From positions 1,860,001-1,924,000 of the forward strand of contig PSQN01000004.1 of the NCBI GenBank assembly GCA_002989075.1: a stretch of DNA of 64,000 nt, written 5' to 3'. Position numbers and translations under genes: made by a program. How positions within the stretch are numbered: position 1 is the stretch's first letter; each line of letters begins with the position of its first letter. The stretch is from Arthonia radiata. Its lineage: Eukaryota; Ascomycota; Arthoniomycetes; Arthoniales; Arthoniaceae. Positions 20,051 to 64,000 of this stretch are shown piece after piece. Below the pieces are notes generated by a model. That model was not told the DNA's origin and searched no databases. It saw only the letters and a list, made by a program, of their open reading frames with translations.

Positions 20051-21209
20051 ATGTCCTCCCAACAGCGCCTGGCCGCCTGTCTTCAGTCCTCGAAGTACCC
20101 AGAACCCGTCATCGTCCCACCCCGTCAATTACCACATAAGCACTCTATCATACTCCTCCATGGCCGTGGGGACAACGCTAAGAATTTCGCGCCGGTGTTA
20201 CTCATGATGAAGATACCAGGAATCGGGTCCCTCACTACAGCTTTTCCACACGCGCGATTTGTCTTTCCCTCCGCTGCTCCACGTCGTGCTCAGGTCATGA
20301 AGCGCCTGCCAATGAGCCAGTGGTTTGACATTTTCGACATCAAGAGACAACAGGAGCAGCAGGAGTTGCAGATCGAAGGCTTGAGAGAGACCAGCGAGGG
20401 GTTGCATATCTTGATGCTGGGAGAAATCGAAAAGGTAGGTGCGGAGAATGTCATGCTTGGAGGCCTCAGTCAAGGCTGTGCGGCGAGCCTGATAGCAAGC
20501 CTGCTCTGGAATGGGCCAAAAATCGCCGGCGTCATTGGCATGTGTGGATGGTTGCCATTGCGACTCGTCTTGGCCGAAGCAGCGGACATGGAGGAAGAGC
20601 TGGACAAGCTGGATGCAAAGAACGAGGAGCAATTGAATCTGGAGATTCACAAAGAAATGAAGAAGCACGAACTGGGTGAGACGAGGCAAGAGAAAGCTAA
20701 GGTTGAGTTCAGGGATGATACTGATGCCCCAGTGGACGAGAATTCAGCAGTGAGCCAGGACCCTGCAAGCACTGAAGCGCAGAAAGTTGTCGCTGGACTT
20801 CGTGAATATCTGGACCTTCCTAGACTCGAAGTCGAGCATATTCCCTGTGAAGACACGCCGCTGTTTGTCGGGCATGGCTGGCTCGATCACAAAGTACCGA
20901 TCAAGCTCGGGCATAGAGCCGCTGACTTCTTCTCCGTCCTCGGGACAGATGTCAGCTATAGGGAATACCGAGACTTGGGCCACTGGTGAGTGTTGCAGCA
21001 ATCGCACACCTTGCGTTGCCGTTTGTGGAGTAGTCGCTGGCGGCGAGCTCGTGGCCTGTCTCAAAAGGTCTGGCTTGGAATCGAGAGAGCGCGGGTATGA
21101 TGCTCTTTGGATCGGTTAAGGCTAACGTGTCGTCGCCAGGTATTCGCCAGACATGTTGAAAGACGTGGTTCAATTCATCCACCAGAAGACTACTTGGGAT
21201 CAGCCATAG
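20051..21209 (+). CDS. Acyl-protein thioesterase/phospholipase-carboxylesterase family hydrolase
   Basis: An alpha/beta hydrolase of the type that removes palmitate from proteins or hydrolyses short esters. Two exons: 20051-20985 and 21140-21209 (334 aa). The intron interrupts the Trp codon of the conserved GHW stretch, and the spliced end YSPDMLKDVVQFIHQK fits the family. The catalytic triad is visible: Ser140 in GGLSQG, the Asp in GHGWLDHKVP and the His in YRDLGHW. An oxyanion-type LLHGRGDN motif lies at 35-42. Compared with a ~230-aa APT1 the protein is longer. A charged Glu/Lys/Gln-rich insert of about 70 residues follows the CGWLPL segment, and there is a short Gln-rich stretch near residue 100. 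The acyl substrate is unknown. Confidence 0.9.
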
Positions 21210-21531: not shown

Positions 21532-22685
21532 ATGTCTTCAACGAAAGAAAAAACCAAAATCCTGCTCACGGGCGCCTCCGGCTTCATTGGCGGAACGTAA
21601 GCTTCCCTTTCGGCGTACATCGTTCTCCTTGCGCGCATTTTCAACATACTCACGCACCGTCAGCGTCCTGAGCACCCTTCTCACTTCCGCCCACCCCTCC
21701 ATTCAATCTCTCTCCTGCTCCGTCCTCGTCCGCAACCCCTCTCAAAAGCCCCACTTTGAATCCAAAAACATCAACACAATCCTCTTCAAAGACCTCGAAG
21801 ACGTCTCCACGATCAAGCAAGCAGCCTCAACCCACGACGTTGTCATCAACTGCGCCACCGGCTACGCAACCAATGCCGCGCGGGCGCTCATTCAAGGCCT
21901 CGGCGAGCGCAAGCGCCAGCACCCGGACAAGCATGTCTCCTTCATTCACACGTCCGGCACGTCCAACCTTGGCGACCGTCCCATCTCAAAGGGCTACGTC
22001 GAGCCCCGCTACCAAGAGGGTCGAGCGTTCCTAGACAACGAAGACCTCGACGGCTACATGCGGGAGCGGGAGAAGCAAGAGCAGCATCCGCAGCGCACGA
22101 CCGACGTCGTAGTGATTGATACCGGCCTAGCAGAGAACGTTCCGACGTACATCATGATGCCGCCTACCGTATTGGGGGAAAGGGACCGGCCACTTCCACA
22201 AACGCAGCATGCAGGTGCCCTCGCTGTGTCGCGCTGCGGTCTCTAATGGCTATAGCGCTGTCATTGGTACAGGTGCTGGTGAAATGGACCATGTCCACGT
22301 CGTGGATCTTGCACAACTCTACGAAAATATGCTCGAAGCGCTGCTCGCTGGTCGCCACGACGGTCTACCGAGTGGCAAGCAGGGCATTTATTTTTGCGAG
22401 ACGGGACAGCATAGCTGGCGTGACTTGGCCGACGGGATCGCGAAAGCGGGCAATGAGATGGGTGTGCTCAAAGACGCGGAGATGAAAGAGGTGGGTTTGG
22501 AAGAGGGCGCGAAGTTGTTCTCGGGGAACGTACTGGAGCTGAAGTGGGTCGAGTTGGGGTTCGCGCTGAATGCGAGGAGTCAGACGACAAAGGCGAAGGG
22601 GCTTTGGGAGCCTAGGTACACGCGAGACGACTTTCTTGCTTCGGTGAGGGATGAGCTTGAGGTGGCTAGAGGGGACCATGATTAG
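21532..22685 (+). CDS. NAD(P)-dependent epimerase/dehydratase-like protein, frameshifted in this sequence
   Basis: Exons 21532-21596 and 21664-22685. The N-terminus has the Rossmann motif of extended SDRs (LLTGASGFIGG, about residues 11-21), then VVINCATGYATNAARALIQG and the FIHTSGTSNLGD region; the fold binds NAD(P). The frame from the start runs through IMMPPTVLG and then degenerates. The conserved continuation (GTGHFHKRSMQVPSLCRA, then GEMDHVHVVDLAQLYENMLEAL) lies in another frame up to the stop at 22685. The switch falls at a GGGGG run (22174-22178): four G instead of five would restore a continuous protein of about 360 aa. This may be a real null allele or, quite plausibly, a sequencing or assembly error in a homopolymer. 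The substrate is unknown. A 16-bp tandem duplication overlaps the stop codon. Confidence 0.85.
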
Positions 22686-22699
22686 AGGGGACCATGATT
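22668..22699 (+). repeat. 16-bp tandem duplication overlapping the epimerase stop codon
   Basis: Two exact adjacent copies of AGAGGGGACCATGATT. The stop TAG is formed at the junction between the copies, so the last residues (GDHD) derive from the first copy. Confidence 0.95.
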
Positions 22700-22848
22700 A
22701 GAGTGCAGCATGGACTGCAACGGAGCAACGTAGGCTGGAGAGGAAGATAGCGCGTCTTGTACTTCATACGCTAAAAAGGACCACATCACGAAGCCTGTAC
22801 AATCGTCGGGGAGGCTCTCGGCATAGCCTCACGCGTGAAGGCCCTCGG

Positions 22849-22979
22849 GTAAATGTCAGAGCATCCATGCATTTGATCAGGTATCCCTTTATGATCCTTT
22901 CAGCGGCCCTTCTACCGGCATTGTTCTAAAACAATCCACTCGGCTGCAATTGTAACCACTGTCAGTGCTGCGTAGGGAC
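22849..22979 (+). repeat. Degenerate introner-like unit (array 1, first copy)
   Basis: Begins GTAAATGTCAGAGCATCCAT, close to the GTAAGTCT.AGAGCATCCA start of the family, and directly abuts the next unit. The middle and 3' part have decayed (only a GTCAGTGCTG stretch recalls the branch-site region). Membership rests on the 5' block and the position in the array. Confidence 0.5.
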
Positions 22980-23120
22980 ATAAGCCTCAGAGCATCCAGC
23001 ATTTTGTTCTATTGCCTCACCCGCATCCCCAGGCAGCTAGCACGCCGGCGTTGTCGCTCCACGCTTTGAGTGGAACCTGAATGATTTCAGAATAGGCTGT
23101 GCTGGAAGGATGTTCCTAAG
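22980..23120 (+). repeat. Introner-like unit with mutated donor (array 1, second copy)
   Basis: A 141-bp unit sharing the family blocks in order: AGAGCATCCAGCATT, AGGCAGCTAGCACGCC, GTGGAACCTGAA and GGCTGTGCTG. The donor has changed to ATAAGC, the branch-site area reads CTGGA instead of CTGAC, and the end is CTAAG. As an intron it looks dead. Confidence 0.78.
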
Positions 23121-23261
23121 GTAAGTCTAAGAGTCTCTAGGCATTCCCTCTGCTGCCTCACAACCTTTGTCAGACTGCTAGCGCGCTGGCGCTGTCCCCG
23201 GACGGTTTGTTTGAAACTTGAACGACCTTCGGAAGAAACTGTGTTGACAATTTCTCCCTAG
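23121..23261 (+). repeat. Introner-like unit with intact splice signals (array 1, third copy)
   Basis: A 141-bp unit starting GTAAGTCTAAGAG and ending TTCTCCCTAG. By eye it is very similar along its whole length to the coding-gene intron at 63305-63446, and shares the central GCTAGCGCGCTGGC palindrome. The branch-site region reads TTGAC rather than CTGAC. It begins immediately after the AG of the previous unit and lies on the same strand as the upstream epimerase gene. Confidence 0.85.
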
Positions 23262-23297: not shown

Positions 23298-24413
23298 TCA
23301 CGTCGCCGCCGACACCTTCGCACCGCTCTTCTCCCCCGTAACCCCCTGCCCAACCTGCCGTCCCCTCCACTCCCTCATCATCCCACTCAACCCCTTCCTC
23401 GTCCGATCCTGGTACCACCACGGCTCCCCCCTGAACCCGGCCACCAACAAATTATACACACTCGGCTCCACGACATGTCCACTTGTCCCACTCAACACCT
23501 TCCGCACCACCGCCTCCGCCACCGTGTCCACCTCTAGCGCCGGCCCCAGAAACGCATTCCGCTTCACCCCGAACCCCTCGAACAGTGGCGTGCGCGTGTA
23601 GCCTTGGCAGACGACCACAGTGCGCACTTTTGGGGCGTTGTAATCCGTGACCAGCTCCGCGGCGAGCCCCTCGTGGAAGGATAAGGCGGCGGCTTTGGAG
23701 GCGGCGTAGTCGGTCATGCGTGGGGCTGTGACCCACGCGGCAGAGGATGCGATGGTGACGACCATGCCGTGGTTCTTCTCCACCATCGAAGGCACGAACT
23801 CCCGGGCCAGTCGGTAGTGCGAGATGGTGTTCACGTCGAACGTGAGCTTCACGTCATCTTCGGTGGCGTCGAGGACGGGCTTTCCGCGGCAGACGCCGGC
23901 GTTGTTGATAAGGACGGTGGGGTTGCCGAGGTCTTCGTGGATCTTTTGGGCGACTGACGACACGGAGGCGGGGGAGGTGATGTCGCAGTTGTAGTAGTGT
24001 GTGGTGGGTGACGGAGTGTATGTGAGTTCTTGGATGTCGAGCACGACAACCTTGATGTTCTTGGCTGCGAGACCCTGCACGATTCTCTTCCCGATGCCGT
24101 CTGCGCCGCCGGTTACCACTACGATCTCTTTTGCCCAGTCGTAGGTGTCGGAGGTGTTGTTATTGAGCGTGCGGCGGTCGAGGTAGCCGCCTATTACGCG
24201 GAGGGCGGAGAGTATGGCGAGGACGCGTGAGTACTTGAGAAGGAAGGGGCGCTCTTGCGTGAGTTGTTGGCCGCGGGGGACTTGTGTGAAGTAGGCGTAG
24301 AGAGGGAGGGTGAAGAGGGGGTTCAGGAGGGTTTTGCGGATGATGCGACCGAGGATGTCGGCGTGGAAGCCTTCGCGGGGGAGCCAGGCGTTGCGGTCGA
24401 GGGGTGAGGACAT
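23298..24413 (-). CDS. Retinol-dehydrogenase-type short-chain dehydrogenase
   Basis: An intronless 371-aa classical SDR of the membrane-associated SDR16C/RDH10-like kind. Motifs are complete: cofactor loop TGGADGIG (101-108), Asp126 after the second strand (VVVLDI), NNAG (170-173), Ser in TIASSAA, and the catalytic YAASK with Tyr236 and Lys240. The N-terminal ~95 residues before the Rossmann fold include hydrophobic stretches (TLLNPLFTLPLYAYF, then VLAILSALRVIGGYL) that may anchor it to the ER or lipid droplets. It probably oxidises or reduces a lipophilic alcohol/ketone, but the substrate cannot be deduced. It converges on the epimerase-like gene, with an introner-like array between the two. 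Confidence 0.92.
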   Translation of the reverse strand: MSSPLDRNAWLPREGFHADILGRIIRKTLLNPLFTLPLYAYFTQVPRGQQLTQERPFLLKYSRVLAILSALRVIGGYLDRRTLNNNTSDTYDWAKEIVVVTGGADGIGKRIVQGLAAKNIKVVVLDIQELTYTPSPTTHYYNCDITSPASVSSVAQKIHEDLGNPTVLINNAGVCRGKPVLDATEDDVKLTFDVNTISHYRLAREFVPSMVEKNHGMVVTIASSAAWVTAPRMTDYAASKAAALSFHEGLAAELVTDYNAPKVRTVVVCQGYTRTPLFEGFGVKRNAFLGPALEVDTVAEAVVRKVLSGTSGHVVEPSVYNLLVAGFRGEPWWYQDRTRKGLSGMMREWRGRQVGQGVTGEKSGAKVSAAT

Positions 24414-24850
24414 TGTGGTGTTTGAGCTGCCAGATACAATGTGCTATTGTCACTGAATATATAGTGATGAAGAGAAGAGCCAGGCACGCGAGATGGGATG
24501 GGATGGGAGCTTGAAGTGTGGGGAAGGCTTACCGGGGGCCAAAAAGGGCTGGTGCCGTAAGTGGGGTCCGAGGTGATCGTCAAGGCGGAGGTGCTATCAC
24601 TTCTCCGCAAAGGTCGCAAACTAACTTCACTCAACAGAAAGCCTGAGGTCGCCATGATACGCGAAGAACACCATAAGAAGAGAAATCGTATGAGCAAGGG
24701 TGTCATCGTAATGCAATCTCGGCCACCCTAAACCAACAGCTCTGTGAATGAGACATCTGATCATATACCCGCCAAAGTCTTCATTCCTCCTCAGAACCGA
24801 GATATCAATGCAGTCCCATCGCTATGCAATCCAAACACTCAATCGCTCAA
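24414..24850. other. Intergenic region
   Basis: Upstream region of the SDR and downstream region of the secreted-protein gene (both on the minus strand). A purine/pyrimidine-rich stretch at 24470-24540; no gene recognised. Confidence 0.45.
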
Positions 24851-25435
24851 TCACTTCGGCGCATTGATCGCCACAAATGCCGCCGCGAAGCAACCCTCAG
24901 GCACGACACCACCAATCTCATAGCTGACACGGCCGACGCCACGCTGGCCAAGGCTTGGTGAATCTTCGTTGCAGTCTGTCACGCATTAGCACAAGCTCCG
25001 AGACACCTTGAACACAGACTTACAGTAGAATCCCTGCGGCGCATCCTCGTTGTACAGGATCCCGTCCTTGAGGTAAAAGTCCGACATGCCCGCACCCTGG
25101 ATCACACTTACGCCACTGTCCGTCAATTGGAGTCCGTAGCCAAACTCCTGCATTTGAATGCCGGTGTAGCCGTAGGGGTCGGTCTGATTGGCAGTGACGA
25201 AGTTGAGGGGAGGAGTTGCGTCACCCTCGTAAGTTTTGATGTATGCGGCGGAGTTGCTGGGGACGGCGGTGTAGTTCGACGCAAGGTAGTCGTTACCAGA
25301 TGGCTGAAGGACGGCAATCTGTAGGACAGTGCCGGGCTCGTAGGAGATTGGGCCTTGCGGACCTCCTGCTGGTATGGCTGCTGGGAGTGCGGTGGCGGTG
25401 GCCGCGAGAGCCGCGAGGGCAGTGAAGGTGTGCAT
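24851..25435 (-). CDS. Small secreted protein of unknown function
   Basis: Two exons: 25435-25024 and 24975-24851 (178 aa), separated by a 48-nt intron (donor GTAAGT, branch GCTAATG, acceptor GACAG). The start MHTFTALAALAATATALPAA is a clear signal peptide with likely cleavage near residue 17. The mature part has a Gly/Tyr/Asn-rich beta-type character (GPISYEPGTVLQIAVLQPSG, then YGYTGIQMQEFGYGLQ) with NYT and NQT glycosylation sequons. Only two cysteines remain after the signal, in YYCNEDSP and VPEGCFAA, and they could form one disulphide. It resembles the general layout of fungal cell-wall or surface proteins, but no family was identified. An introner-like array lies about 0.8 kb upstream on the same strand. 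Confidence 0.85.
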
Positions 25436-26273
25436 TTTGTTTGAGTTTGTAGGTCGTAAGAGATTATTACAAGTTTGTAGAAGAGAGACTTGATGCTGCA
25501 CTTGGGTGAATGAGGCAGTCAGGGCGCTTTTGTTGCAATATTAGTAATAGTGAAGGAGATGCAGAGTGAAGAGGAGCTCGGTAGAATGAAGGGAGCTACA
25601 ACAGCTTATGTAGCAAGGCAGGCACCTGCAAGCAGACTGCGACTTCTCCGAACAGAGCTCAGATAGAATCTCGAAGGACGGTTAAGTCTCCGGCTCGGCT
25701 GCTCGTAAGCAAATTTTGGGCGCGGTTGTGTTACAACAACCATTCCATGCGATACAATGACCGCAGCTTACGAAGGACGGCGGCGAACGTCAACACTAAG
25801 CTCGTGAAGTGTTGGGACGGTACCGAATACCACCAGTCGAGAGGGTTAAGCGTACGAAGCGGTACATGAATAATATATTGTTCTTGCGCGGCAGTTAGGG
25901 AAGGTGGCTGGTGGCTGATCAATCCGAAAAAGAGCGCTGGGGGCCGAAGCTAGTCCTCGTTGAGAATGTTAGGTCCAAAATTGGACGGCTCACAACCTTG
26001 GGACGGATTCTCATTTGCCAGCGTTCTCACGCGTCTGACACGGCTCCAGGCGGCATCGTGTCCACATCTCCACTTGCTGTCAACCATCCGGACTGTGAGA
26101 ACTTCTGCCATGCGAACTCGCTGTGCCCAGTCTTTGCGATGCGATCGGCACGTAGCTTGAGAGGAGGTGGGATGTCTTTTCAAACGGTCGACGCGTCCCC
26201 GTTGACAGCGTAGGGAGGTCTGGTCCTGGACTTCCCTTAATGTGAGACAGAACCGACCAAACCTTTGCGCAGC

Positions 26274-26415
26274 CTAGAACATGAATGTCAGCGCAGCCTG
26301 CTCCGAAGTTTGTTCAGGTTTCGAACAAAGCGCTTTAGAGCAGCGCCGGCGCCCTGACTGCCAGGCAGCGGTTCTTAAGCAGCAGAACGTAATGTGTGGA
26401 TACTCTGAGACTTAC
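26274..26415 (-). repeat. Introner-like unit with intact splice signals (array 2)
   Basis: A 142-bp unit on the minus strand. It starts GTAAGTCTCAGAGTATCCA, contains GCTTTGTTCGAAACCTGAA and GGCTGCGCTGACATTC (CTGAC branch-like), and ends TGTTCTAG. Same length as the coding-gene intron at 63305-63446. It directly follows the acceptor of the neighbouring unit. Confidence 0.85.
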
Positions 26416-26557
26416 CTGGAAGGAAGATGTCAGCACAGCCTGTTGCGGAGTTAGATGAAGTTCCAAACAAAGGGCTACAGAGTAGTGCCAGCACTTTCGC
26501 TGCCTGACAATGACTTTTGAAGCACAGAATAAACTGCGTGGCTGCTCTGAGACTTAC
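26416..26557 (-). repeat. Introner-like unit with intact splice signals (array 2)
   Basis: A 142-bp unit on the minus strand. It starts GTAAGTCTCAGAGCAGCCA, contains TTGTCAGGCAGCGAAAGTGC, CCTTTGTTTGGAACTTCA and GGCTGTGCTGACATC, and ends CTTCCAG, abutting the next unit's GTAAGT with no spacer. Confidence 0.85.
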
Positions 26558-26592
26558 TTAAAATCCAAATGTCAGCACAGTAATTTCTGAAC
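26558..26592 (-). repeat. 3' fragment of an introner-like unit (array 2)
   Basis: Only the 3' end of a unit is left: ACTGTGCTGACATTTGG followed by ATTTTAA where an acceptor AG would be expected. It sits immediately upstream (minus strand) of the complete units, so the array once held at least three copies. Confidence 0.6.
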
Positions 26593-28023
26593 AGCATTAT
26601 CATGAGAGTTCTTAGGGGCTTTACGCGCTTTTATTCTTTACAACCGCCGGCGAAAGGGCTCTTTATTGGGCCACACGATGCCACAGAAGCTAAAGCATGG
26701 ACGCTGTGGACTTATCCTCAGTCAGTCAACTCCCAATGTGACGACCGTGGCGAGCTTTCGTTGCATGTGCTTCGTCGCTCGAGCTAATGGGTTGCATGAG
26801 CTCTCGGTCCCAGCTGACCTTGAAACGAACCTACTGACATGCCGAGCGTCTGCACATTCAGCGACTACCAAATCGTCAGCACCATCTATCATCATCTGTG
26901 CCTAGAACCATGTAGTGGTGGCCTTTGCGATCGATGTGCGGAACTCTTCAAACACCGTGGCGTAGCGCTTGAGTTGTCAGACATTCAGAAGGGCTCACCA
27001 CCATGACCCATCCAACTCCCTCCGCCCAATCCTGAGATGCATACGTTGCTGCCATCATCCTACGAACTCAAAATCTGCGATGAGAACAAGTAACTCTTCG
27101 TCACCTTCCGTCCGTGCAGTAAGTGAAGCAAGCCCGATGTGCCTGCCCACAAATTATTTCGACGGGCTTTGAAGCGAGCATAGCAAACAAGTTCTCACGC
27201 ATGCGGGAATATACGAGCAGGTTTCAGTGAGACGTCTATTGAAAGTAATAGAGCTGAGGGCATCGACGTAGTCTGATACGCCATTGAGGCGGAAGCGTTG
27301 ATTCTACAAGTAGTAGCAAGCCAGTGGATACCTGAACACACGGACGAACGCGGTCAAAAAGGAGTTTCTCGATGTCCAAGAGATTGAAGTGAGCGAAGCT
27401 GCGATTAGAATAGATTCAAGGGCAGTATGAGCTTACTCGTGAGCAATGAGGTTAAGGTAACCTGTGCGCTCGGGCAAGTGAGGAATAACGACAGCACCTT
27501 GTTTCAAGCGTTCGTGTTCAGCAGCAGGGGCAGACCGCATGTTTTCTATTGGAAGGCAATCAAAACACGTTCTCTGGAATGGTCTGCCCTCGATGAGAAA
27601 CTGCTTATTGCGACCCCTGCAGAGCTGCTGTTGAAGAACGTGAACGTGGGCCAGGCTGGGGTACAAAAGACACCAACTTGCTGAGTAACGTCTCCTCCGC
27701 GGGAGAACTCCTCGTGAGTACCTTTGTACCTCAATATTACGACTGATGCTGGGACCCACCCCGTGCGCGGTTTCACGGCAATGGAGTAGAGAGCGAGGCC
27801 AGTAATGCAAGAGGGTCGCAAAAAATCCGTCACCTTTTTGCCTCGATTTTCAGGCAACCAGAATACTCGCACTTCCGAGGTCGACATTGGATGGCCACCG
27901 CACATTCGCTGCACCTCTGTCGTCAAGAGGACCCTCTCGTGTGCTTCATTGCTCCACGGTCGTCAAAGCAGCACAGATGGCACACTGTCTATCTCAATAG
28001 CATTTACTACATCAACCCCCATC

Positions 28024-28812
28024 ATGTCACCTCCCTCCATCCTCACGCCCACCCTCCTTCGCACCCTCCGCACCTCTCCGAACCTCCCACCGCAAACCTG
28101 GCACTACACCACGGCCGTCACTTTATCCGCGCTGAATCTCCCGCACGAGCTTCCCACACTCCTCCACACCGCACTCACAGACCACGGCCCGCTCCCCACA
28201 GCGCAATCCACTCCGCCTTCACAAACGGAACTCCACAAGAATCAGCTCCACACAGCCCGCCAAATCCGCGAAGCCCTCCTCAAATCCACCGCCATCCTCG
28301 GCCTCCCGTACACCATCAACTCCCTGCTCTCCCTCTCACGGTGCACACCTCCATCCCTCCTCGACCCGCCGCTGCAGCCCTCACCCACAGGCCGCTCCCT
28401 CGAACTCGCCAACGCCCCCACATCGCAGATCCTCCACCGCGGCTCCCGTTTCTTCGATCGCGTCTACGGCAAGATCGCCGCGCGGGTAATGGGGCAGATG
28501 GACCGGTGCGGGACAGAAGACCTGGGGTTAATGGCACGCGTCTTGTACGGGTGGGGGTTGAGCAACGAGAGCGTGCTCGGGGCGAAGGAGACGAGTTTCT
28601 GTCTTGTGGCGGGGTTGGTGCCGCTGGATGTGAATCCGCAGCTGAAGGGGCATCTGAAGGGCGCGTTGAATAATGCAGCGAGCGTGGAGGAGGTGAGGGC
28701 TGTGAGGGGGTGCGCGGTGAGTGTTTGTGAGGCTGCGGGGATGAGGGTGCTTGGGGAAGGTGAGAGAGGCCTAGGGTGGAGAGAGCCGGTCGCGGATCTG
28801 AAGGGTGAGTGA
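28024..28812 (+). CDS. Carboxymuconolactone decarboxylase/AhpD-like protein
   Basis: An intronless 262-aa frame from the ATG at 28024 (an open frame continues upstream without a good start). The C-terminal half has the helical CMD/AhpD-like signature: RFFDRVYGKIAARVMGQM, then CGTEDLGLMARVLYGW, FCLVAGLVPLDVNPQLKG and ALNNAASVEEVRAVRGCAV. The family includes gamma-carboxymuconolactone decarboxylases and AhpD peroxidase partners. The CxxC redox pair of AhpD is absent here (the nearest cysteines are spaced as CAVSVC), so peroxidase activity is unlikely. Fungal homologues are mostly uncharacterised, often mitochondrial. It converges on the zinc-finger regulator. Confidence 0.87.
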   Translation: MSPPSILTPTLLRTLRTSPNLPPQTWHYTTAVTLSALNLPHELPTLLHTALTDHGPLPTAQSTPPSQTELHKNQLHTARQIREALLKSTAILGLPYTINSLLSLSRCTPPSLLDPPLQPSPTGRSLELANAPTSQILHRGSRFFDRVYGKIAARVMGQMDRCGTEDLGLMARVLYGWGLSNESVLGAKETSFCLVAGLVPLDVNPQLKGHLKGALNNAASVEEVRAVRGCAVSVCEAAGMRVLGEGERGLGWREPVADLKGE

Positions 28813-32947: not shown

Positions 32948-35900
32948 ACTGTTGTCTCAGACAACTCCTTTTGTGGAGAAAAATGGCGTAGTCGCTCGGA
33001 GGTCCCAGTAGCGCTGATTGGTGGCACGGAGAATAACGAGAGTAGGAGACCCGCTATATTAGGTACTCTTTAGTCTCAACGCTTGTAATGTTACAACAAG
33101 AAGGCCATGGACGGCTTGTAGTTTTGGCTTCTAGGTGCTGTAGTTGAGAAGATCGTGCAAAACGAATTTGGTTCGACAATAGAATGAATAATTGAATTGT
33201 CCGCAAGGGCGATAAGAGCGTAGGTACTCCGTATCAAAACATTAAGACTGCGATGGTTCTTGTAAGGAGCCGGAATTGGTAGATGTACCTCGAACGTTGG
33301 TAGAGATGTGAGATGGTGAGAGACGGGGTCGAACGTCAGCCCCGGGACGGCCCAAGCCAGCTTTATACAGGTACGAATAGCGAGCTGAGATATGGCTGTG
33401 ACAACCACAAGACGACAGAAACAACGAAGTCCACACTCAAGAAGCGAACGACGAGGCAAGTTGACTCTTACCCAGCATCAAAGGGAAGAAAAGAAGGGCG
33501 GTGTCAAGGTATCTTGCCCGGACTCATAGCAAAGAGAAAAGAGAAATGAAGTAATGAATGCGGCATAGTTTGGTCAGCTTAGTCGGCGGATGTCGCTGCG
33601 GGCTGAATGGAACACGGACGGCAATCGAATGCAGAGAATAGCTGACTGGCGCGATTGTTGACGACACGATAGGGCGAGCGCATAGGACCGTACCGAATCG
33701 TAAATTGTGCAATGGATTGGTGTTGACAGACGCTCAGGGATCTGACGGGACCGGATCCAGGAACACTAGAGTGGGTTGATATCTGCGTCCGTGCTGGAGA
33801 GGGTTGAAGGGCAGAAATCCAGCTCAGCACGATCTGCACGGACTTCACGTGTGAGATGCAGTTGGTATCGGATCTGTGTGCCACGGGGCAAGGTATGCAG
33901 ATGGAAGTGAAAGGTCGTTCTTTCGAACTGACTGGACACCGGTACTTAGCTGCAGGGCGTCACCATTATGCGGTGTCACACATCCTTGTGTGCAGCAATT
34001 GTGATACGGCGTCAAAGTGATGAGGAAATGCTATCGCCAGTCCGCAAGTCCGACGAAGCAAAGTCGCGCCGCACCTCGCGAGCAGACAAAAGCCATTATG
34101 GAGCTCTCGCACTCAATGTGGGAGGATGGGTACGGAGAATGGAACTCAAATCCACCTTGTTAGACCGCTTCATTGCTGGAATATTTCGTCATTTGTTTCG
34201 GATATCTCGCTTCTTGGGGGCTTGCAGGTATGCAGGTATGCAGGTATGCAGGTATGCAGGTATGCAGGTATGTGGGCAAGCTTGTGCATGTACTGACCAA
34301 GGTAAGATAGACTAAGCTGTCTGCAAGGCTCCGGTGGCTCCGTCCAATGCTACCTCTCAAGCATATTGCCGCCGTTGCCGCACACGCACAGTATCTCAAC
34401 GCGAGCGTACAGCCTAGCCGCAGTTGTCAGACGATTTCAGAATAGAGCCGCTCATTTCGCAGATGCCTGAAGGCGTATATATCGGTCAGGCGGGGCATGG
34501 TGGTAGTTTTTCAAATTGGGCAAGAATTGGCGTCCGCGAACGGCAACTGACAGCTCAGATCTTACTAGCCGGAGCTTTTCGGCCACTAGAAAGGACCCCG
34601 CTCCTGGAGGGCACACGACTTGGGTGTGCAGGATGAGTGCAGTGGATCAGGCTCTGTTAAGGTGCTGACTGGACACGCGCTGGGGGTGAAAACGGCGTGA
34701 ACTGATGGCGTGAGGTGGCTCTTGGCTGTGAGGATGACGGCTAATCGACGGCTAAGCGCCATTTCCGAAGCTGTAGAGCGGGAGAAAGCGAGAGGGTGTT
34801 TTGCAAAGTCACTTTGAGTTGAAGAAAAGGTTCCCGGTGTGGGACGTCGATCTGGTTCCCAGAATTCATGGCGTCGGGAGTGCGCTTCCCCCTTAGCTTC
34901 ACCCTAACACTAAATGCGAGTTAATCCCGGCCGCTATCCCGAGAGTCATGGTACAAGCGTCTTCGCCCCCGTCCCGCGCTGCCGTCTCGTCTCGTCCGCC
35001 GATCTTCAGACGTTGTTTACTCCTCCCCTTCACCGCCTCATCCTGAAGACGGCCATGCTCTCAAGACTCCAGCCCAACAATCCTAGGCTCCAGGATCAAC
35101 TGACGCCGGTCGCGGTCAGCCCATCTCGCACCTTCGCATCATCGCTGGCGTCCGCAGTCGCCCCTTCCTTCCTGGGCGCGGAGATGCTCGTGTCCAATCG
35201 AGGTGAACTGCTGTCAGCAGAGTGAGGTCGGCCAGTCGGCGCTGACAAAGACCGGTCGAGAGGTGCATAAGCGCGAACGGTCGATCCAGGAACGCGTGAG
35301 CTTGGACCTTCCTCAACCCACGCCACGGACGTGCCTCACCTTTCTCGCGCCTCCAATCCTTGGCCCAGATCTCTCCACGTCGACCATGTACTTCGTCGCA
35401 TCATCCATTATGCTGCTTAAGCTTAATCAGCCCACTACGCCCCCCCTTCCAGCGCTTGTTCGGCATCCCACCTCTGACAGCACGAGTACAGCGACACCTT
35501 GGTGTGATCTGCCAAGGGACCCGATCCTCCTTGTGTTACTCACATGGCCATCTCTGTACAACACGTGTATGCAACACCTACATGGGAAGACTGCTGCAAA
35601 TCTTCTTTCGCCACCATAGATCTGGCTCAGACCTCTCACAAATGCGAGATTTCGGCGAAAGGGTCGATAAGCGATCTCATCTCACACAGGATCCACAGGA
35701 ACCGCCCTTATTTTCTCGTGCCGCTCCGCATTATGGGTGCACAAACTCTCCTTGCCTGATGCCATCTCAATTTGGCTAACATTTGTGCCTCATCTAGGTA
35801 GTTTCGTCTCGCAGCCTAACACGAGGTACGGAATCATGGCCCAGATTGCCACGACACAACTGCGCCCTCCATTCGTAAGCTTCTTTGAGGCCTTTCTCGC

Positions 35901-42023: not shown

Positions 42024-44235
42024 ATGGCGATAGATCCGGAAAAGACCAACATTGACCATGCCGAGCTGGATGCGCGCTCGTCGTCGCCAGATGATAGCGA
42101 CAGCGAAAAGAAAGTGGAGAGCGAATACGTCAAGCTGCGCAACCCGCTGGCAGGTCTTACAAGAGACGAGCTTCTTCGAGACGTGGATGCTTTCGCTGTC
42201 GAGAAAGGTCTTGAGGATGAGATTGTGGTACTGAGACAAGGCGGTGAGTCTCAGCCAATGTCATTGACAACAGCTCCGTTCTCGAGCTCTGATTAACGAT
42301 GCATCCAGCCCTGATCGCTCAAGACCCCAACAGCTTCGAGCACGCGACCGACCTGAGCGAGGACGACAAAGAGATTCTCCGCCGCGAATATACACACAAG
42401 TGGTCGCAACCATGGATGATGTACTTCATGACTATTCTCTGTGCTGGCAGTGCCATCGTCCAGGGTATGGATCAGTCAACTGTCAATGGCGCGCAACGGT
42501 ACTACTTTATCGAGTTCGGCATTGGCGACGATCAAGTCTGGATGCAAGGTCTCATCAACGGCGCTCCTTACCTTTGCTCAGCGGCTATCGGATGCTGGAC
42601 GACCAAGCCTCTCAATTATTATTTCGGGCGTAGAGGGTGTATCTTCATCTCCTGCTTCATCTCATTCTTCACTGGGATCTGGATGGCAGTCGTCGGCAGC
42701 TGGCCAAATCTGCTCGTGTCGCGGTTTGTATTGGGTTTGGCCGTGGGCGCAAAGAGCAGCACCACGCCCGTTTATGGCGCGTGAGTTAGCCTCAGCCGTG
42801 AGGTTGGGAAGACATTGACTGACCATGACAACGCAGTGAATGTTCGCCTAAGCTTATTCGTGGCGCACGGGTCATGATGTGGCAAATGTGGACAGCTTTC
42901 GGAATCATGCTGGGCTTTGTTGCTTCGCTTGGCTTCGGCTACATCGAAGGCAACGCCGGCATCCCTGGAATCATGTTCCTTAATTGGAGGTTGAGTGAGT
43001 CGTCCGAGCTGCCACCGTAGGCATCACGTTCTCATACTGATACCGTGCAGTGCTGGGCTCAACTGGCATACCACCACTGATCGTTTGCATAATGGTCTAC
43101 ATGGTGCCAGAGTCGCCCAGATGGTACATGACCAAGAACAAGTACCGCAAAGCTTTCAACGCCTTGTGCAGGTTTCGACCATCCAAGTTGATGGCAGCGC
43201 GCGACCTGTACTATATTCACAAGGCACTTGTCGTTGAGTACAAACAGAAAGAGGGCAAGAACCTATGGAAAGAATTCTTCATGATCAAGAGAAATCAGCG
43301 AGCGGCGCGTTTCAGCTTCTTTGGTATGTCCGCCGGCACAGCCAACCTCGTATTCACACTAACATCATCACAGTCATGTTCATGCAGCAGTTCTGCGGCG
43401 TCAACGTAAGCTTTTTGCAATCCATGCATCCTATTCTGTACCCTTCCGTGATTCTGTGAATGGCTCAGCCGTCAGCGTTACTAAGACCTTCAGTTCCAGA
43501 CCGGTCGATCGTCGTATGGTCGCTGTACAAACCCCTTTTGTGCTGACACTTTGCCTGTAGGTTATCGCTTATTACTCTACGCAAATCTTCCTCAACGCTG
43601 GCTTCGGAGAAAAGAACGCTCTCGCCGTCTCTCTCGGTACGGGTATCTGTAACTGGCTCTTTGCTATTCCTGCCATCTACACGATCGACACCTTCGGTCG
43701 CCGCAACTTGCTACTCACCACGTATCCGATCATGGGTCTCTGTCTACTCTTTACAGGTTTCTGTTTCCTCATCCCCGAAGCCACGCAGGAACAACGCGAC
43801 GCCCGTCTCGGCTGCATCGCGACGGGCATCTACCTCTTCATGGTCGCCTATTCGCCTGGTATGGGCCCGGTTCCATTCACCTACAGCGCCGAAGCCTTCC
43901 CGCTGTACATTCGAGAGTACGGCATGGCCTTCGCAACAGCTACGACATGGGGCTTCAACTTCATCCTCAGTCTGACGTGGCCAGCTCTGCGCGCGGCGTT
44001 CACGGACACCGGCGCGTTTGGATACTACGCGGCATGGAACTTCCTGGCATGGGTGGTGGCGTACTTTGCGCTGCCCGAGACCAAGGAACTGAGTTTGGAA
44101 GAGCTGGACGTGGTATTCTCGAAGCCGACGACGGAGCATGCGAGCTACTATGCGCAGAGACTGCCATGGTATGTGCAGAAAAGGCTGTTGAAGAGGGATG
44201 TGCCGCAGATGAAGAAGCTTTACGAGCTCGAATGA
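42024..44235 (+). CDS. Major facilitator superfamily sugar/polyol transporter
   Basis: A plasma-membrane transporter of the sugar-porter family, probably a proton symporter. Six exons: 42024-42243, 42309-42780, 42837-42994, 43051-43323, 43374-43405 and 43561-44235 (609 aa); exon 5 is only 32 nt. The joins are fixed by conserved stretches: YGA-ECSPKLIRG, NWRLM-LGSTGIPP, FF-VMFMQQFCGVN and GVN-VIAYYSTQIF. Signatures include NYYFGRRGCIF after TM2-3, PESPRWYM at the end of TM6, DTFGRRNLL after TM8 and LPETKELSLEEL after TM12. An acidic N-terminal cytosolic tail of about 110 residues precedes TM1. The motifs are closest to inositol/polyol and related transporters, but substrate cannot be read from the sequence. 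Confidence 0.92.
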
Positions 44236-63232: not shown

Positions 63233-64000
63233 TTACAGCTCACCCTCCTCACGCGCCTTGTAATCATTTGCTATTCCCTGCTGCTCCTTCTGCCAACCAT
63301 CTGCCTAGGGAGAAAATGTCAGCACAGTTTCTTCCCAAGGTCTTTCAGGTTCCAAACAAAGTGTCTGGAGCCAGCGCCAGCGCGCTAGCTGCCTGACAAA
63401 GGTTGTAAGGCAACAGAAGGGAATGCCTGGATGCTCTAAGACTTACCATCATTTTCGCGACATTCTTACCCATAAGCGCACTCGTCTCCATCGTACTGAT
63501 GAAGCCTTCTATGGCGCCTGTATACCACAAGCCATCACCACCTCCTGTCTTGCCATCAAGTCGCAACGGCTCGAAGGTGTCTCGCGGATATTCGATAGGA
63601 TAGCTGAGCCACTTTTTGCGGTACATCCAGGTGATGTCGCCATCGCTGATGCTGTCGTCGGACTGCAGCTCGAGGTCGAAGAGCCTTGCGAGGAAGGCGT
63701 CAGAAACGGATGTAGGCGTGAATATCTTGTAGAGCAGCTCAGGGTTGCCTGTGGTCGGGTGAGTTACCGCGCGAAGGGTGGAAACAGAGAAGAACTCGGG
63801 TATCTGGTCCTTGCACTCGATGCTACCTGGCGGCTGGGCGCAGTCGGGCATTGTAGTCAAGAAGGTCGTCGGCACCGCGTCAATCTGACTGAGATTGAAG
63901 TAGTCGCGGGATAGTGGTAGAGCTGTCGTGAATAGCGTCACGTGCAGTGTCCTGTACTCATCGTTCCTGGGCATGTGCTTCAGGTCGGCAGCACTCCAGT
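63233..64000 (-). CDS. Prenylcysteine oxidase-like protein, 5' part cut by window edge
   Basis: The flavin enzyme of this family cleaves prenylcysteine released from degraded prenylated proteins. Two exons are visible: 64000-63447 (entering from the right edge in frame; ATG at 63974 is internal) and 63304-63233. The C-terminal prenylcysteine-lyase region is clear: ITWMYRKKWLSYPIEYPRDTF, LWYTGAIEGFISTMETSALMGKNVA (in parts). The exon end KNVAKMM joins across a 142-nt intron to ADGWQKEQQGIANDYK and a TAA stop at 63233. This intron is an introner-like element. If it is retained, the frame adds 33 unrelated residues before a stop. The FAD-binding N-terminus lies outside the window. Lysosomal/vacuolar location is expected from the family. 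Confidence 0.87.
63305..63446 (-). repeat. Introner-like element acting as the last intron of the prenylcysteine-oxidase-like gene
   Basis: A 142-nt intron on the minus strand with donor GTAAGT, CTGAC branch-like site about 15 nt before the end, and acceptor CCCTAG. Removing it restores the reading frame to a nearby stop codon. It shares the blocks CTTAGAGCATCCAGGCATTC, GGCAGCTAGCGCGCTGGC, CTTTGTTTGGAACCTGAA and ACTGTGCTGACATTTTC with the units at 22980-23261 and 26274-26557. Shared sequence between an intron and dispersed units outside recognised genes is the defining mark of introner-like elements. The central near-palindrome can fold into a stable hairpin. Confidence 0.88.

Follow-up and report, generated by a model that had tools for sequence, protein, structure and literature searches.

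The 142 nt intron termed P63 is probably an introner-like element, that is, a spliceosomal intron and at the same time a mobile repeat, which spread by seamless copying of the excised intron. Its relatives in the window (the whole 64 kb stretch of DNA that was analysed) form two head-to-tail arrays whose units are joined AG|GT without an exon, and both arrays lie outside recognised coding sequence. The origin of new spliceosomal introns is an old open question, and for fungal introners an RNA route has been argued and is unproven. The P63 family could show how introns spread, as units of unequal age that are joined at splice sites separate the hypotheses of intron gain. If an RNA route reads splice-site ends, AG|GT junctions should occur together with an age order in many arrays per genome. 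Under a DNA route, target sites are expected to be duplicated and junctions to be random.

The P63 intron in a prenylcysteine lyase-like gene

P63 is located on the minus strand and reads from 63446 to 63305, beginning with GTAAGT, passing through GCTGAC and ending with CCCTAG. The branch-point sequence CTGAC occupies bases 18 to 14 counting back from the last intron base. The intron is preceded by an exon at 63447–63998 (minus strand), which codes for the C-terminal portion of a prenylcysteine lyase-like protein and runs off the window, and is followed by the last exon at 63233–63304 (minus strand), which encodes ADGWQKEQQGIANDYKAREEGEL and a stop codon. The initial annotation had placed a 142 nt intron with perfect splice signals at 63305–63446; these coordinates proved to be exact, and the GTAAGT, CTGAC and CTAG signals were all confirmed. 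It had also claimed that removal of the intron preserves the reading frame, and this too was borne out: splicing produces a phase 0 junction, KNVAKMM|ADGWQKEQ, with the stop codon 23 codons on. If P63 is retained, the open frame extends 33 codons into the intron before reaching a stop.

We compared the alternative protein products with the Pfam family PF07156 (prenylcysteine lyase). The upstream exon alone gives a match of 98.3 bits that reaches profile position 349 of 363. For the retained frame these values are 99.3 bits and position 351, and for the spliced protein 107.1 bits and position 361. As the match is better and extends further after splicing, and as the retained frame stops after 33 codons, splicing of P63 is well supported by the sequence and the domain match, and the intron is presumably spliced in vivo. 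A search of PDB with the C-terminal part of the protein returned two chains with E-values up to 10, the best being a phosphatase (E 0.031) and the other a prenylcysteine oxidase, chain 9fxq_A (E 0.18). A scan for the upstream-exon protein in bacterial and archaeal genomes (genome_contigs) located 17 pattern stretches, none of which was confirmed as a relative, and the same scan of viral_contigs found nothing. Zn2Cys6 and Fungal_trans domains encoded in the window give this DNA a fungal look.

Relatives of P63 in two exon-less arrays

P63 is firmly a member of a repeat family. Using blastn and a family profile, we found four other full units in the window that resemble P63 from end to end (65–87% identity) and that terminate at splice sites. 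The blastn matches to P63 are at 23121–23261 on the plus strand (86% over 142 columns), 26415–26284 on the minus strand (74%), 22981–23104 on the plus strand (73%) and 26557–26423 on the minus strand (72%), with E-values from 1e-37 to 1e-16. The top match of P63 beyond itself scores 145 bits, compared with 32.6 bits for the best of 200 dinucleotide-preserving shuffles. In the comparison by family profile, which was made from those same units, identity to P63 is 71% for 22980–23120, 87% for 23121–23261, 65% for 26416–26557 and 70% for 26274–26415; profile positions 1–142 are covered in three of these four relatives and positions 2–141 in the fourth. No further full-length copy was listed by the profile search of the whole window on both strands. 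The initial annotation was therefore right that P63 is similar along its whole length to units outside recognised coding DNA, but the units described there as lying elsewhere in the window are not scattered singles; they make up two exon-less head-to-tail arrays.

Array 1 extends from 22849 to 23261 on the plus strand and array 2 from 26715 to 26274 on the minus strand, and within each array every unit starts where the previous one ends. The 3′ unit of array 1, A1u3 (23121–23261), has intact splice signals and is the youngest of that array. It is preceded by the older A1u2 (22980–23120), in which donor and branch point are mutated, and by a strongly decayed probable unit, A1u1 (22849–22979). 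Array 2 ends with A2u3 (26274–26415) and A2u2 (26416–26557), both of which have intact splice signals, preceded by another strongly decayed probable unit, A2u1 (26558–26715). The junction between A1u2 and A1u3 reads CTAAG|GTAAGT, with one G of uncertain side, and that between A2u2 and A2u3 reads CCAG|GTAAGT. The full units follow one another with a period of 141–142 nt and zero spacing; the decayed units are 131 and 158 nt long.

A decayed third unit is probable at the 5′ end of each array, judging from scores obtained in register with the neighbouring units. In register, the score of A2u1 is matched by none of 13 856 background windows and none of 1000 shuffles, and that of A1u1 by one of 13 880 background windows and none of 1000 shuffles. 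When dinucleotide shuffles were scored by two measures, one and zero of 1000 were as high for A2u1, and zero and zero of 1000 for A1u1. A free scan of the whole window gave A2u1 a score of 12.0, the highest after the five full units. The corresponding score of A1u1, 9.5, is at background level: it equals the best score of one shuffled strand and is exceeded by an unrelated place on the same strand (20197–20344, 11.0), so the support for A1u1 comes from its in-register position.

Upstream of array 1 is a same-strand frame with its stop codon at 22683–22685, which places the start of the array 163 nt past that codon, and downstream is a convergent short-chain dehydrogenase frame (23301–24443). 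Array 2 is located upstream of a minus-strand frame (24989–25540) and before a plus-strand frame (27790–28809). The gene just 5′ of array 1, which we take to be an NAD(P)-binding epimerase-like gene, matches PF13460 weakly, under the Pfam cut-off, and carries a frame change within a G-rich run at 22158–22243 (plus strand), for which a sequencing error or disruption of the gene could be responsible. A 16 bp tandem repeat (22667–22712, plus strand) spans the stop codon of this gene, 137–182 nt before array 1.

Six of the seven units, two of them only probable ones, thus lie outside recognised coding sequence, and in this one window one of the three family loci is in coding sequence. As introns, the family is represented by one copy in coding sequence and by two faint candidates that are considered below. 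Exact-pattern scans for conserved parts of the units gave no match in bacterial and archaeal contigs (genome_contigs) or in viral_contigs, blastn comparisons of array 1 with plasmids and of P63 with phages gave none, and Rfam gave none at gathering scores. A tRNA-derived SINE was also considered and found no support, as no tRNA genes were found.

The borders of the family units coincide with splice sites at three loci whose flanks are unrelated, the outer flanks being identical at 3–9 of 20 positions. In the self-comparison of the window, the match between P63 and A1u3 extends one G beyond the donor. As judged by eye, and at the arrays by way of the decayed units, the base preceding the insertion is G at all three loci, and the insertion sites read G|G, G|T and G|G. 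No terminal inverted repeat was found in the seven units (3–8 of 20 bases matching), and there is no target duplication common to the loci, with no shared border word longer than 6 nt besides the tandem junction. Target-site duplications and/or terminal inverted repeats, by which DNA-transposon introners are recognised, were therefore not found. P63 alone has a 6 nt word, GATGGT, near both borders, for which we estimate an accidental chance of about one in eight. Helitrons begin with TC, end with CTRR and insert between A and T. The full units of the P63 family begin with GT (four of five) or AT (one of five) and never with TC, and although unit ends read CTAG at three of five places, this combination of Helitron features is not that of the family.

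Ages, folds and candidate older members

The five full units differ in how far they have diverged. We counted private differences, defined as columns in which a unit differs while at least three of the other four agree, and found 8 in P63, 16 in A1u3, 25 in A2u3, 26 in A1u2 and 31 in A2u2. Among the 20 differences between P63 and A1u3, 13 are derived in A1u3, six are derived in P63 and one is ambiguous. By these counts P63 has diverged least among the five full units, as a recent gain would lead one to expect. This is how the proposal of the initial annotation, an introner-like intron recently gained by copying, now stands: the repeat family, the coincidence of unit borders with splice sites and the lack of terminal inverted repeats or a shared target duplication all agree with it, and a recent gain would be in keeping with the low divergence of P63.

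A1u3 is 87% identical to the distant P63 and 67% identical to its neighbour A1u2, and local duplication alone therefore cannot explain array 1. In a maximum-likelihood tree of the five units, A1u3 groups with P63 in 97% of 200 bootstraps and A2u2 groups with A2u3 in 100%; array 2 may thus be explicable by local duplication. From 5′ to 3′, the glocal scores are 9.5, 69.0 and 108.5 in array 1, or old to young, and 12.0 (old) followed by the close values 66.0 and 70.0 in array 2, all measured against a consensus whose undecided positions were filled from P63 and A1u3 and which hence leans towards these two units. With two arrays only, this trend from old at the 5′ end to young at the 3′ end is a lead, not a result.

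P63 is predicted to form a stable structure (z −4.2, with none of 200 shuffles as stable). The array units are not strongly folded, with z values of −0.85 for A1u3, −1.8 for A1u2, −1.4 for A2u3, 0.1 for A2u2 and 0.1 for A1u1, and array 1 folded as a single strand is ordinary (z −0.73). The majority consensus of the five units folds similarly to P63 (z −2.5, three of 200 mononucleotide shuffles). Compensatory changes lend the fold no support, as pairs changed on both sides number 4, compared with 3.2 in shuffles. P63 has both the length and the stable predicted structure by which a fungal introner-like element is recognised; the older units do not fold in this way. Such structures are reported to degrade with age (PMC8469720, PMC9024468), and the folds of this family agree.

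The splice signals GTAAGT, YTGAC and AG are kept by three of the four full array units, the exception being A1u2, which has lost donor and branch point. Columns 1–13, a block picked after the alignment was seen, are more conserved than the remaining columns even among the four full intergenic units (permutation 0.0017; two of 143 circular shifts). Taken by themselves, the splice-motif columns of these four units show only modest conservation (permutation 0.04), and the branch point by itself shows none (0.38). Conservation in the array units could stem either from constraint before insertion, acting on active copies, or from constraint after insertion, acting on spliced transcripts. Elsewhere in the window, at 34223–34272 (plus strand), the octamer TGCAGGTA is repeated 6.2 times, and every copy holds the splice-junction-like word CAGGTA.

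Two longer introns in other genes bear a faint likeness to the family. An intron of 155 nt at 43406–43560 (plus strand) interrupts a sugar-transporter gene at GVN|VIAYYST, with PF00083 matches on both sides. When it is aligned with the family consensus from donor to acceptor, the borders of the alignment are its splice sites; with the splice motifs fixed, its score is reached in 3 and in 11 of 1000 shuffles under the two measures used. A weaker possible relative is an intron of 154 nt at 20986–21139 (plus strand), which interrupts a carboxylesterase-like gene at GH|W|YSPDML, downstream of an exon that matches PF02230. This intron aligns from its donor to position 21125 and was scored over its whole length in the shuffle test, where 14 and 4 of 1000 shuffles are as high by the same two measures, again with the splice motifs fixed. 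Both introns were first noticed among the top background matches of the free scan, and their shuffle counts are for that reason only suggestive. On the basis of its alignment, the intron at 43406–43560 is possibly an old member of the P63 family.

For comparison, four short introns of 51–54 nt that were chosen by eye have no family likeness, with 203 to 953 of 1000 shuffles scoring as high. The premise that ordinary introns do not share sequence is thereby only weakly tested, on four short introns without a family likeness and two long ones with a faint one. A catalogue of introns in the window based on coding statistics contained 0, 14 or 30 candidates depending on the run, with true and false ones mixed, and is too noisy for the family to be expressed as a fraction of all introns.

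Routes of spread and comparison with known introners

In the mechanism that we propose, excised intron RNA would be reinserted, most likely either through reverse splicing with transcribed DNA as the target or through RNA ligation into a break and subsequent copying. The point of reinsertion would follow a G, and the new copy would be seamless, would carry both splice sites and would be spliced out from the first transcript. A new copy would sometimes enter on the 3′ side of an older one, at the terminal AG of the latter, and this would give rise to exon-less arrays of the form AG|GT...AG|GT, in which unequal crossing-over between adjoining copies could add more. We favour an RNA route because units delimited by splice sites occur at three unrelated loci, because there are no transposon marks and because the junctions read AG|GT. 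Besides splicing in vivo, we infer a recent gain in the gene that carries P63, an RNA intermediate and end-targeted insertion.

Insertion right at the terminus of a copy already in place, to which the arrays point, could be due to targeting or else to a chance event, with unequal crossing-over afterwards. It is conceivable, though doubtful, that the arrays record a rule of integration by which a new introner enters right after the terminal AG of an older one, as if this were the end of an exon, such that arrays grow from old at the 5′ end to young at the 3′ end. If such a rule is true, exon-less arrays are a footprint of reverse splicing that can be read in sequence. Reverse splicing has so far been argued mainly from missing transposon marks.

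Several other explanations can be weighed against the introner reading, which itself has to accommodate the finding that just one of the three loci is coding, though a strong bias of fungal introners towards genes has been described (PMC9860276, section 8). The arrays might be clusters of introns in untranslated regions or non-coding transcripts that are spliced serially, and would then serve as donor loci, with several intron RNAs set free from each transcript. The start of array 1 shortly past a stop codon on the same strand and the splice signals kept in most full array units would suit this explanation, which we nevertheless consider rather unlikely: the 5′-most donors have decayed (GTAAAT, ATAAGT), and P63 is less derived than all four full array units, which does not make the arrays an obvious source. 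The orientation of the arrays relative to their neighbours tells nothing either way, with convergent frames around array 1 and divergent ones around array 2. It is unlikely that the family consists of Helitron-like repeats or non-autonomous DNA transposons whose ends resemble splice sites, with P63 as a co-opted insertion and the arrays as ordinary tandem copies. The location of the arrays outside coding DNA would accord with such an element, the CTAG unit ends recall the CTRR end of Helitrons, and a DNA-transposon mark is present in most introner families outside ascomycetes (PMC9860276). Standing against it are the lack of a terminal inverted repeat and of a consistent target duplication, unit starts and insertion sites that do not correspond to TC and A|T, and the presence of both splice sites inside the unit.

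A satellite-like intergenic repeat that was amplified by unequal crossing-over, and from which one unit recombined into a gene and became an intron, would account for the zero-spaced full units of regular period and for the sister relationship of A2u2 and A2u3. We regard this origin as quite improbable, given that A1u3 is closer to P63 than to its neighbour, that the least derived unit is P63 and not a unit of an array, and that just three units were found per array, the decayed ones differing in length; random DNA junctions, moreover, should not coincide with GT and AG at as many as three loci. Least probable, to the point of being hardly credible, is the explanation that P63 is unspliced, that the retained frame forms the end of the gene and that the likeness to the arrays is due to an unrelated repeat insertion. 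The 33 open codons of the retained frame agree with it, and they are opposed by complete splice signals and by the better and longer PF07156 match after splicing.

The introner reading can be compared with several known systems. The introner-like elements of Dothideomycete fungi (Collemare et al., 2015, PMC4457414; van der Burgt et al., 2012 and Torriani et al., 2011, as cited there) are, like the P63 family, spliceosomal introns of similar sequence with seamless borders and fast decay. P63 also resembles them in being longer (142 nt) than the four short introns of the window (51–54 nt) and in having a stable predicted fold that is lost with age. The P63 family differs from them, as compared by description and not by family sequence, in that six of its seven units lie outside recognised coding sequence and are joined without exons. 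The paired introner-like elements that a PCR study found in one gene are 145–626 bp apart and not joined (PMC4457414). Joined introner arrays are not among the matches listed in the literature, as judged from titles and the starts of abstracts, and the founding papers of 2011–2013 may describe them. The element is thus of a known, introner-like kind, and its arrangement as joined exon-less arrays was not found in the literature searched.

Introners of other lineages, including algae, that derive from DNA transposons are likewise dispersed repeats acting as introns, and they often have the target duplications or terminal inverted repeats that were not found in the P63 family (PMC9860276). The introners of ascomycetes are described as being similarly without transposon marks, and reverse splicing or RNA-tethered repair of breaks has been discussed for them (PMC9860276, section 8; PMC8469720; PMC12403724). 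The sister stwintrons of Hypoxylaceae (PMC8469720, PMC9024468, PMC12403724) are also repeated ascomycete introns in which two U2 introns are in contact, and they share with the P63 family the lack of a target-site duplication and an internal inverted symmetry. A [D1,2] stwintron has the donor of its outer intron split by the inner one after the first G, whereas each adjoining full unit here has its own donor (mutated in A1u2). We considered this class for the arrays and rejected it, as a split donor is not found: at A2u2|A2u3 an A precedes the 5′ unit and a G follows its AG. Unlike the partners of a [D1,2] stwintron, adjoining full units of the P63 family are related to each other over their whole length.
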